Shown: one piece after another, positions 6,388 through 10,242 of the stretch
How positions within the stretch are numbered: position 1 is the stretch's first letter
Layout of the letters: the number at the start of each line of letters is the position of its first letter
Source of the DNA: Flavobacteriales bacterium
Lineage (GTDB): Bacteria; Bacteroidota; Bacteroidia; Flavobacteriales_E; Vicingaceae
Direction: 5' to 3'
Assembly (NCBI GenBank): GCA_029262875.1
Contig: JAJCYO010000008.1
Coordinates: 1-64,000 of the forward strand
DNA: 64,000 nt
The notes under the pieces: model-generated
What the model saw: the letters and a program-made list of their open reading frames with translations, nothing else
Database searches by the model: none
What the model was told of the DNA's origin: nothing
Translations under genes and position numbers: made by a program

Positions 6388-6780
6388 ATGAAAAAGTCCA
6401 TAAGAAATATGTCTAATGCCGAGTTGATTGAATTCTATACAACCAAAAGATTAAACGGAATGGATTTCTCAATAATGAGAAAAGACATGGAAAGAAAAGA
6501 AGTTGAGCCTTCTATTATCAAAGAAGTTATTTGGGAAATTGATCATCAAATGTTGATTCTCCCTAAAATTGAAAAAGAATACAATACCGCCAAATGGGTA
6601 TATTCGTTATCAATTGTTTTTTTAATAATTCCAACATTATTTTTGGTTTACCTCTTAGTAGATGGTGAGGAATTAAATACCAGAATGTTCCTAATTGTCC
6701 CAATACAATTAATCGCTTTTTATACCGCTAAAACCAAATTCAAAAGAGCAAAGTTTAATAGGGATAGAAAAGGTTTATGA
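6388..6780 (+). CDS. Uncharacterised protein with two C-terminal membrane segments
   Basis: A 130-residue protein of unknown function. Residues 1-65 are charged and helical, and residues about 72-92 and 98-116 are hydrophobic, so it is probably an inner-membrane protein with a cytoplasmic N-terminal domain. The ATG follows the preceding stop directly (TAA ATG), and its own stop overlaps the next start in an ATGA arrangement, showing tight operon packing between the DUF4159 and methyltransferase genes. Confidence 0.65.
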   Translation: MKKSIRNMSNAELIEFYTTKRLNGMDFSIMRKDMERKEVEPSIIKEVIWEIDHQMLILPKIEKEYNTAKWVYSLSIVFLIIPTLFLVYLLVDGEELNTRMFLIVPIQLIAFYTAKTKFKRAKFNRDRKGL

Positions 6781-7934
6781 ACTCAGATGAACAAACCTTT
6801 ATAGAAGCTAACAAGCAAAAATCAGTAGCAGCATTAGCCCTGCTGTTGAGTAAAAAACCAGCACTGAACAAAGAATTTATTCTTAGCCAAATTAACGGCA
6901 TTCAAAAAGCCAAAACGAAACTTCCAGAATTCTTCAACACCCCTAACATTATCTATCCATCCAAATTATCTATGGAGCAATGTTCTTCCGAAAAAACTGG
7001 AACATACAAAAGTGAACTGGTGAAAGGTGAAAAGATGATTGACTTAACTGGAGGTTTCGGAATTGACAGTTATTACTTTTCTAAAAAGTTTGATCAGGTT
7101 ACCTACATAGAACAAAACAAAGCGTTAGTTGAAACAACTAAGCACAACTTTAGTTTATTGAAAGCTGACAACATTAAATTAATTAATGTTACCGCAGAGG
7201 AATTCATCAATACTACAGAAGGTATTGTAGACCTTATTTACATTGATCCAAGCAGAAGAAGTGAAAACGAGCGTATTTTCATGTTAAAGGAGTGTGCACC
7301 AAACATCATTGATTTAGCACCAAAACTATTTTCCATTACCAATAAAATTTTAGTTAAAACTGCCCCTCTTTTAGACATTAAACAAACCTTAAGAGATTTA
7401 AAACACGTTACTAAAGTTTGGGTTGTTTCTGTTAAAAATGACTGTAAAGAAGTATTGTACTTATTAGAAAAAGATGCAAAGGTTGAGCCTGAAATTTACA
7501 CCGTAAACTTTTTGGAAAGTAATCAAGAATTTCACTTTAATTTTCAAGAAGAAAGTGATACCAATTCGAGTTATTCAGAACCTCTCAACTATTTATACGA
7601 ACCCAATGCATCTGTTTTAAAAGCAGGGGCCTTTAAGAGTATTGGTGAAAATTACAAAGCGAATAAACTGGCTTCCAGCACCCACCTCTATACTTCTACA
7701 GAACTCATTGAAGATTTTCCTGGTAGGATATTTAAAATAGCAAAGGTACTCCCCTATCAACCAAAAGATTTTAAAAAATTGGGATTAGCAAAAGCCAACG
7801 TAAGTACTCGTAATTTTAAAGATAATCCAGAACAAGTAAAAAAGAAACTGAAATTAAAAGATGGTGGGGAACATTATCTTTTTGCAACCACTGATTTAAA
7901 TGGTAAACCTATTTTAATTATTTGCGTAAAATAA
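6777..7934 (+). CDS. SAM-dependent methyltransferase with THUMP-like domain
   Basis: A 385-residue class I methyltransferase of the PG_1098/THUMP-like group found in Bacteroidota. The SAM-binding motif I is MIDLTGGFGIDS, followed by the acidic end of strand 2 in VTYIEQN. Motif IV-like IYIDPSRR resembles the N6-adenine or RNA-methylating loops. The C-terminal THUMP-like region ends in NVSTRNFKDNPEQVKKKL and GGEHYLF. An RNA substrate is likely from the THUMP-like domain, but the site is unknown. Its ATG overlaps the previous stop by 4 bases. The neighbour rsmE is also an RNA methyltransferase. Confidence 0.85.
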   Translation: MNSDEQTFIEANKQKSVAALALLLSKKPALNKEFILSQINGIQKAKTKLPEFFNTPNIIYPSKLSMEQCSSEKTGTYKSELVKGEKMIDLTGGFGIDSYYFSKKFDQVTYIEQNKALVETTKHNFSLLKADNIKLINVTAEEFINTTEGIVDLIYIDPSRRSENERIFMLKECAPNIIDLAPKLFSITNKILVKTAPLLDIKQTLRDLKHVTKVWVVSVKNDCKEVLYLLEKDAKVEPEIYTVNFLESNQEFHFNFQEESDTNSSYSEPLNYLYEPNASVLKAGAFKSIGENYKANKLASSTHLYTSTELIEDFPGRIFKIAKVLPYQPKDFKKLGLAKANVSTRNFKDNPEQVKKKLKLKDGGEHYLFATTDLNGKPILIICVK

Positions 7935-8268: not shown

Positions 8269-8592
8269 ATGTGGAAAGAAAGATTAAAGCTTTATGACGA
8301 ACTTGTTGCACAGTGCACGAGATTTGAAAGAAAAGGCAAAACCATGCCCTATACTTCGGCTAATGGCTACATGTTTTCTTTGTTAAACAAGGATGCACAG
8401 TTTGGCATTCGGTTCTCTAAAGAGGTGCAAGAGAACTATTTTCAAAAATTTGAGACTACCTTCTACAAGTCTTATGGAGCAACAATGAAAGGATACATCT
8501 TAATTCCAGATGCGCTCTTAGAAGACCAAAAATTATTTTGTGAGCTATTGGATGAGAGCTATGATTACGTAATGACATTAGAACCAAAATAA
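8269..8592 (+). CDS. Uncharacterised cytoplasmic protein
   Basis: A 107-residue soluble protein with no signal peptide or membrane segment. I do not recognise the family. The pattern of a helix, then YTSANGYMFSLLNKD, then FGIRFSKE faintly recalls TfoX-N/YjbR-like small alpha-beta proteins, but this is a weak impression. It lies one base before the aminotransferase gene, so it is probably the first gene of the aminotransferase/sulfotransferase operon and may be functionally linked to it. Confidence 0.6.
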   Translation: MWKERLKLYDELVAQCTRFERKGKTMPYTSANGYMFSLLNKDAQFGIRFSKEVQENYFQKFETTFYKSYGATMKGYILIPDALLEDQKLFCELLDESYDYVMTLEPK

Positions 8593-8593
8593 T

Positions 8594-9511
8594 ATGGTAC
8601 ACGGAACACACAATGCAGAGGCAGACAAAAGAAATGCAGCCATTAAAATCTTTATTAATGGAGAATTATTAGCTAGAGATGACGCTAAAATTTCCGTTTT
8701 TGATAGTGGCTATTTAGTAGGTGACGGAATATGGGAAGCGCTTCGTTTACATAATGACAAATTGGTTTTCTTGGATTTACACCTCAACAGAATGTGGGAG
8801 GCTGCAGCCACTATTGGCATGAATTTACCGTTTACAAAAGAGGAACTCACTGAGAATATATGGAAGACAATTAATGCTAACGATATGCACGACAATGTTC
8901 ATGTCCGTACCATGATAACCCGCGGCATAAAAAAGACACCTTCTCAAGATCCTCGATTAACAATTTCAGGCCCGAATGTGGTCATTATTGCAGAACATAA
9001 AAAAGCTTCAACAGAAAGCCAAGAAAAAGGAATTACATTATTTACATCAACTGTTAGGAGAGGCTCCCCAGATTACCTTGACCCAAGATTAAACTGTCAT
9101 AGTAAACTTCATGAAGTCCAAGCTTTGGTTCAGGCCATTGAAGCTGGAGCAGATGAAGCTCTAATGTTAGACGCCAATGGGTTTGTTGCTACATGTAATG
9201 CCACTAACTTTTTCATTGTAAAAGACAATGAAGTATGGACTTCTACTGGTCAATATTGTATGAATGGGATTACAAGAGCCAAAGTGATTGAAGCTTGTGC
9301 TAAAAACAACATCCCCTGTAAACAAAAGAATTTCTCTTTATATGATATTTATGGTGCTCAGGAAGCATTCGTAACTGGCACTTTTGGAGGATTAACACCC
9401 GTAACTAAAATTGATGGGAGAACTATCGGTGAAGGAAATTATGGCGATTTTACAAAAAAACTGAGTAAATTGTATCACCAATTGATTCAAGAAGAAATTG
9501 ATAAAAAATGA
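8594..9511 (+). CDS. Class IV PLP-dependent aminotransferase (BCAT-like)
   Basis: A 305-residue fold-type IV aminotransferase, the superfamily of branched-chain and D-amino-acid aminotransferases and aminodeoxychorismate lyase. The PLP lysine is K171 in LNCHSKLHEVQ. FDSGYLVGDGIWEALR and the phosphate-binding GITRAKVIEA and VTGTFGGLTPVT are present. The conserved glutamate that normally contacts the pyridine nitrogen (motif E-x-[STAGC]-x2-N) is replaced by T200 in ATCNATNFF. The next gene overlaps its stop by 4 bases (ATGA) and encodes a sulfotransferase-like protein; homologous halves are joined in plant BCAT-like proteins. The true substrate is unknown, so I give no gene symbol. Confidence 0.85.
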   Translation: MVHGTHNAEADKRNAAIKIFINGELLARDDAKISVFDSGYLVGDGIWEALRLHNDKLVFLDLHLNRMWEAAATIGMNLPFTKEELTENIWKTINANDMHDNVHVRTMITRGIKKTPSQDPRLTISGPNVVIIAEHKKASTESQEKGITLFTSTVRRGSPDYLDPRLNCHSKLHEVQALVQAIEAGADEALMLDANGFVATCNATNFFIVKDNEVWTSTGQYCMNGITRAKVIEACAKNNIPCKQKNFSLYDIYGAQEAFVTGTFGGLTPVTKIDGRTIGEGNYGDFTKKLSKLYHQLIQEEIDKK

Positions 9512-10242
9512 AATCAAAAGATGGTATAACAAGAATATGTTTGTGGTCTGGGCCAAGAAACATCTCAACCACCCTTATGTATTCTTTTGCTCAGAGAAAT
9601 GACACTACTGTTTTTGACGAACCATTATATGCGTATTACCTGTGCAATACCAACGCTGATGAATATCACCCTGGAGCTGATGATGTAATCGCTTCACAAG
9701 AAAATAATGGAAAAAAAGTAATTGAAATGATGATGGGTTACCATGACAAATCAGTTCTTTTCTTCAAGAACATGACACACCATTTATTAGGTTTAGATCG
9801 TTCTTTTATGAAAGATGTAGTGAACGTAATTCTAACTCGCGATCCGAAAGAAATGATACCCTCATTTGCAAAAGTTATTGAAAACCCTACAATCAATGAC
9901 ATTGGTTATGCCTTACATACTGAATTAGTGGATTATTTCGATAAGCATCAAATCAAGTATGTCATTTTAGATTCTAAAAAGATATTACTCAACCCAGAAA
10001 AGGTGCTCACTCAATTTTGTGAACAGATTGGAATTAATTTTGACCAAAATATGCTAAGGTGGGTTCCTGGTGCTCGAAAAGAAGATGGCGTATGGGCTAA
10101 ATATTGGTATCATAATGTACATCAATCGACCGGCTACATTCCTTATAAACCCAAGACTGAGCATTTTCCTGAGTCATTAAATCCTTTATTAGAGGAATGC
10201 ACACCCCATTATGAGAAGTTAGCGAAAAATGCCATTGGTTAA
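9508..10242 (+). CDS. Sulfotransferase-like P-loop protein
   Basis: A 244-residue cytosolic protein of the sulfotransferase-like P-loop superfamily. LWSGPRNISTTLMYSF at residues 12-27 corresponds to the 5'-phosphosulfate loop, and RDPKEMIPSF (R111, S119) to the 3'-phosphate-binding motif of PAPS enzymes. A later conserved block includes GVWAKYWYHNVHQSTGY. Real PAPS use is inferred, not shown. It is translationally coupled to the class IV aminotransferase by an ATGA overlap. Its 3' end overlaps the convergent DUF6973 gene by 4 bases. Confidence 0.78.
   Translation: MKSKDGITRICLWSGPRNISTTLMYSFAQRNDTTVFDEPLYAYYLCNTNADEYHPGADDVIASQENNGKKVIEMMMGYHDKSVLFFKNMTHHLLGLDRSFMKDVVNVILTRDPKEMIPSFAKVIENPTINDIGYALHTELVDYFDKHQIKYVILDSKKILLNPEKVLTQFCEQIGINFDQNMLRWVPGARKEDGVWAKYWYHNVHQSTGYIPYKPKTEHFPESLNPLLEECTPHYEKLAKNAIG

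Follow-up and report, generated by a model that had tools for sequence, protein, structure and literature searches.

Among the enzymes of fold type IV, the residues that hold the cofactor are described for IlvE of Escherichia coli, where K160 forms the Schiff base, E194 and Y165 contact the cofactor, the former at the PLP pyridine nitrogen, and R60, G220, I221, T222 and T258 contact the phosphate (PMC9309667). A member of this fold that carries an Asn at the lysine position is the aminotransferase-like protein of Variovorax paradoxus (7z79); given that the mutant N174K of this protein has been deposited (9j32), the missing lysine of one family member had already been noticed by structural workers. 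In the open-access literature we found no paper on a lysine-less fold type IV protein or on 7z79.

On the sulfotransferase side, the sulfotransferase domains of olefin synthase (Ols) and of the curacin system (CurM) presumably sulfate a hydroxyl to allow elimination. These enzymes have PAPS-site motifs, and APS kinase is needed to make PAPS. For the family Sulfotransfer_5 (PF19798), no member with a known substrate was found in the open-access literature. In plants, the "branched-chain-amino-acid aminotransferase-like" proteins of Arabidopsis, which we take to be the products of At5g27410 and At3g05190, identifiers that occur in none of the open-access papers searched, presumably contain a sulfotransferase half of this kind fused to an aminotransferase-like half, the sulfotransferase being first and the second half carrying the His-type motif SKIHHN. 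A study in which plants were searched with PF19798 described an "NFST" class as NodH-like and mentioned no aminotransferase fusion (PMC12506393). An algal sulfotransferase that makes cysteate from 2-aminoacrylate was considered and set aside; it appears in one metabolic-model paper, with no gene link to this family. The original prediction for this locus, that the pair has no described function, agrees with our search of the open-access literature, in which no functional description of it was found.

The pair is located in a stretch of 64,000 nucleotides from a Flavobacteriales genome; this whole stretch is referred to here as the window. Both genes lie on the + strand. The first one (AT, positions 8594 to 9511) encodes a lysine-less class IV (fold type IV) aminotransferase-like protein of 305 residues that belongs to the N-type clade described below and matches Aminotran_4 with 147.8 bits (Pfam cut-off 28.5). 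The second one (ST, positions 9508 to 10242) encodes a Sulfotransfer_5 sulfotransferase of 244 residues, with a full-length match of 152.5 bits (cut-off 23.2) that fits PF19798 without deviation; it is the single ST copy of the source genome. As had been claimed, the stop of AT and the start of ST overlap by the four bases ATGA, which are read from the sequence at 9508 to 9511 (+ strand). Pfam likewise bears out the assignment of both proteins to their families; what was not supported is the view of AT as an ordinary aminotransferase, since its Schiff-base lysine is missing.

The catalytic segment of the archaeal branched-chain transaminases, PPNIKSLNYLNN, reads DPRLNCHSKLHE in the window AT, and the alignment places Asn167 (codon at 9092 to 9094, + strand) at the Schiff-base lysine, that is, at K160 of IlvE and N174 of 7z79. 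In an alignment of 55 sequences this position is occupied by Asn in 25 of 25 N-type proteins, by His in 27 of 27 H-type proteins, and by Lys in the three ordinary class IV homologues (3/3). In every paired AT copy that was read, the lysine is replaced by Asn or His. Compared with IlvE-type enzymes, AT lacks the Schiff-base lysine but conserves the positions that align with the PLP-phosphate contacts (R51, G225, I226, T227 and T263); in the window protein the ring Tyr is also replaced, there being no Tyr near residues 171-172. In addition, the N-type proteins lack the Glu that contacts the pyridine nitrogen: the position of IlvE E194 is a Thr in the displayed N-type rows (T200 in the window AT, codon at 9191 to 9193, + strand), whereas Glu is retained in the displayed H-type rows. 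In the tree, which has few outgroups and some long branches, the Asn-type and the His-type proteins form one clade each, apart from the lysine-bearing ones (supports 100/99, 100/97 and 96/95); therefore, the loss of the lysine is old and occurred once or twice.

The structural model of AT (pLDDT 90.5) matches fold type IV enzymes with Z values of 32-40. The top matches are 7z79 (Z 39.7), which belongs to the same family with 46% identity, and its N174K mutant 9j32; the fold is shared over approximately 285 residues with the branched-chain and D-amino-acid aminotransferases (5mqz, 5e25, 1daa and IlvE; Z 32-35). The top NCBIfam matches of the window AT are branched-chain transaminase models, and the cut-offs of all the transaminase models were missed (best score 254.3 against 363; TIGR01122, 203.5 against 245.55; TIGR01121, 174.5 against 277.45). 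Between the sister species, dN is 0.06-0.07 for AT versus 0.14-0.15 for ST, with dS near saturation; by this measure AT is under strong purifying selection, and neither protein is decaying. As none of the paired members read has the Schiff-base lysine, ordinary transamination by AT is unlikely; on this point the aminotransferase label and the PLP-dependent assay that had been proposed are not supported. For the lysine-less clade as a whole, the branched-chain aminotransferase name of the top NCBIfam models is very probably a misnomer.

The model of ST (pLDDT 96.3) has the fold of the PAPS sulfotransferases. The best structural matches come from the sulfotransferase domains of Ols and CurM and from tyrosylprotein sulfotransferases (Z 13.4-14.5, 10-18% identity), the top ones being 4gox and 5wrj (Z 14.5 each) and 4gbm (Z 14.1). 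ST shares with these proteins the fold and the PAPS-site motifs; in contrast, the identity is low, the context is different, and by sequence it is not of the same family (best phmmer E 0.017). The 5'-phosphosulfate-binding (P-loop-like) block WSGPRNISTTLM extends from W13 to M24 (9544 to 9579, + strand), with P16, R17, N18, S20 and T21 invariant in 61 of 61 sequences, and the 3'-phosphate-binding block RDPKEMIPS extends from R111 to S119 (9838 to 9864, + strand), with R111, P113 and S119 invariant in the same number (61/61). By these motifs, ST retains an intact PAPS-type site, and it looks competent. The source genome encodes an APS kinase (E 1.6e-64), and among 296 Bacteroidota genomes a full-length APS kinase is present in 40 of 41 that carry ST versus 65 of the 255 others (Fisher 9e-20, phylogeny ignored).

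The association of the two genes extends far beyond this genome. In the family to which the window belongs, ST is present in 13 of 46 genomes and AT adjoins it in 12 of the 13 loci. Among the best 80 ST loci from GTDB genomes, AT is adjacent in 66, which belong to Bacteroidota, Balneolota, Planctomycetota, Poribacteria, Chloroflexota, Acidobacteriota, Verrucomicrobiota, Actinomycetota, Deinococcota, Calditrichota, Latescibacterota and Pseudomonadota, many of them metagenome assemblies for which single assignments may be wrong. The 296 Bacteroidota genomes hold a full-length ST in 41 cases and AT in 45, and every ST genome (41/41) has AT (hypergeometric p 4e-46, relatedness ignored); in 38 of these 41 both genes are within 500 bp. 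When AT was not beside ST, a lysine-less partner was present elsewhere in 15 of 16 genomes; in one genome with ST (G347) the partner was undetected at E 1e-20. No relative was found in viral contigs, and plasmids yielded only four distant sulfotransferases with 26-30% identity. A remnant of Sulfotransfer_5 (a 92-residue frame, G153:C2:970153-970341) was observed in a genome that has no lysine-less partner, as if both genes had been lost together.

The genes are on the same strand in all 149 loci that hold both, with none on opposite strands, which is well beyond what chance would give. The order AT-ST is found in 100 loci, all of the N-type, and the order ST-AT in 47 H-type and two N-type loci; the existence of two opposite orders, each tightly linked, argues that it is function that keeps the two genes together. 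In a planctomycete locus (L069, from 5992) a single open frame, of 539 residues counted from its ATG, encodes ST followed by AT. The coupling put forward in the original prediction is therefore real, old and common to several phyla, with a natural bacterial fusion, and the possibility raised there that adjacency might be confined to this genome is clearly not the case. The plant proteins, if they are indeed built as outlined above, would share both domains with the pair, arranged as in the planctomycete fusion and the H-type loci. As judged from these genome comparisons, the pairing of AT and ST is ancient and co-inherited across about ten phyla, and sometimes fused. Strict co-divergence of AT and ST is not shown, because the partner label (N, H or orphan) needs 17 changes on the ST tree, compared with a mean of 37 for shuffled labels.

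The neighbours of the pair are less constant. Upstream of AT, an ORF of 107 residues (8269 to 8592, + strand) stops one base before the AT gene; it resembles TfoX_N (23.6 bits, under the cut-off of 30.1) and in this genome separates the pair from the genes further upstream, without being part of the module. The suggestion that its product may be a third part was not borne out: the gene is absent from the locus of the sister species (L002) and from beside the pair in all the other loci of the family, and as the pair stands without it in the sister species, the 107-residue protein is excluded as a partner. Across phyla we found no conserved neighbour beyond AT and ST, the neighbours that were found being local synteny, and in the AT-ST loci compared there was no conserved third gene that would name a pathway. 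Several individual loci have features of their own. In L038 the pair is directly followed by an ordinary class IV aminotransferase that has the lysine (6738-7595); in an Opitutaceae genome, an EamA-like permease named by eye (L089, 4052-5041) stops approximately 10 bases ahead of the start of AT; MmgE/PrpD-family genes adjoin AT in two Pseudomonadota genomes (L199, 4632-6047; L204, 8425-9780), which may be a pathway hint or chance; and in L007 (584-1499) the AT frame is broken into two overlapping ORFs by a frameshift or an assembly error.

AT also occurs without an adjacent ST. Of 299 Pseudomonadota genomes sampled, 25 have an Asn-type AT; ST is adjacent in 16 of them, a Sulfotransfer_5 gene is elsewhere in six, and three have none. 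In some alphaproteobacteria both genes are present and far apart: in L215, L245 and L212 ST stays between msrA-like and argG-like genes (named by eye) and AT has moved elsewhere. In G463 the msrA/argG locus, also named by eye, holds both genes, which suggests that the separation of the pair came later. Nine genomes carry AT and no Sulfotransfer_5 gene at all (G130, G228, G284, G287, G586, G611, G644, G712 and G810). In three of these (G130, G284 and G287) AT is beside an amino-acid permease, and in four (G586, G611, G712 and G810) it is inside a polar amino-acid ABC-transporter operon; this link to transporters, seen in seven of the nine, was noticed after looking and comes from a small number of independent lineages, and genes for amino-acid transporters are common in general. 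AT is also in an operon of this kind in G862, which has ST elsewhere in the genome. The relatives of 7z79 that share its VFDLRLNSHSRLN motif (L174 and L175) are found in amino-acid ABC-transporter operons without ST, unlike the pair of the window. The transporter neighbours of AT in the genomes without ST point to an amino-acid-like ligand. ST is almost never found without AT, while AT occurs without ST, then usually beside an amino-acid importer, which suggests that AT is the core of the module.

Since AT and ST travel together across many phyla and AT lacks the lysine, the pair probably carries out an undescribed sulfation-linked step and not an ordinary amino-acid transamination. The reading that we favour, for which the chances seem to us about even, is that AT and ST are the two proteins of one module, in which a small amino-acid-like compound is processed and sulfated, the lysine-less protein being a repurposed enzyme or a binding subunit, not a transaminase. 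The amino-acid-like ligand would be taken by AT into the former PLP/substrate pocket, and the product of AT, or the ligand held by it, would be sulfated by the PAPS-dependent ST; the two proteins may act in consecutive steps or inside one complex.

Of the alternatives, the one that fares best, although we consider it unlikely, is that AT is non-catalytic and serves as a scaffold, substrate-binding or regulatory subunit of ST. The loss of the catalytic lysine, together with that of the pyridine-contacting Glu in the N-type, the near-obligate pairing and the existence of a fusion are what would be expected of such a subunit; against it, AT is more conserved than ST, retains a consistent set of pocket residues, and persists in the nine genomes that have no Sulfotransfer_5 gene. 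A somewhat less probable alternative is that sulfate is a leaving group, so that ST would act first, activating a hydroxyl on an amino-acid-like compound, from which AT, the lysine-less protein, would then eliminate the sulfate. The top bacterial matches of the ST model, which are the Ols and CurM domains, fit this scheme, as do the importers beside AT in the genomes without ST, as if the substrate were imported rather than synthesized, and the His of the H-type exactly at the lysine position, where the fold type I dehydratase ColD likewise has a His. However, the N-type has an Asn there and no longer has the Glu and the Tyr that hold the ring of PLP; a PLP electron sink is therefore not evident in it. 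In addition, a tyrosylprotein sulfotransferase reaches the same score as Ols (Z 14.5 for both). That AT is an ordinary branched-chain or D-amino-acid transaminase co-transcribed with ST by happenstance is very hard to sustain, given that its fold, its Pfam family and its top NCBIfam models speak in favour but every transaminase cut-off is missed, the Schiff-base lysine is lost in every paired copy read, and the pairing crosses phyla.

Returning to the two-protein module, a broader interpretation, which we offer tentatively and hold to be less probable than the module itself, is that a PLP-enzyme fold, after one or two ancient losses of its lysine, acquired a new chemistry on amino-acid-like compounds and, coupled to a PAPS-dependent sulfotransferase, may produce a sulfated metabolite that is conserved across many bacterial phyla, and in plants as well if the fusions described above are right; this would represent an undescribed branch of sulfur metabolism. 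A tightly coupled and widespread pair in which a catalytic residue is missing offers a direct way in to a still unknown sulfated metabolite and to the reuse of the PLP fold, and the question would extend to plants if the fusions there are of this kind.
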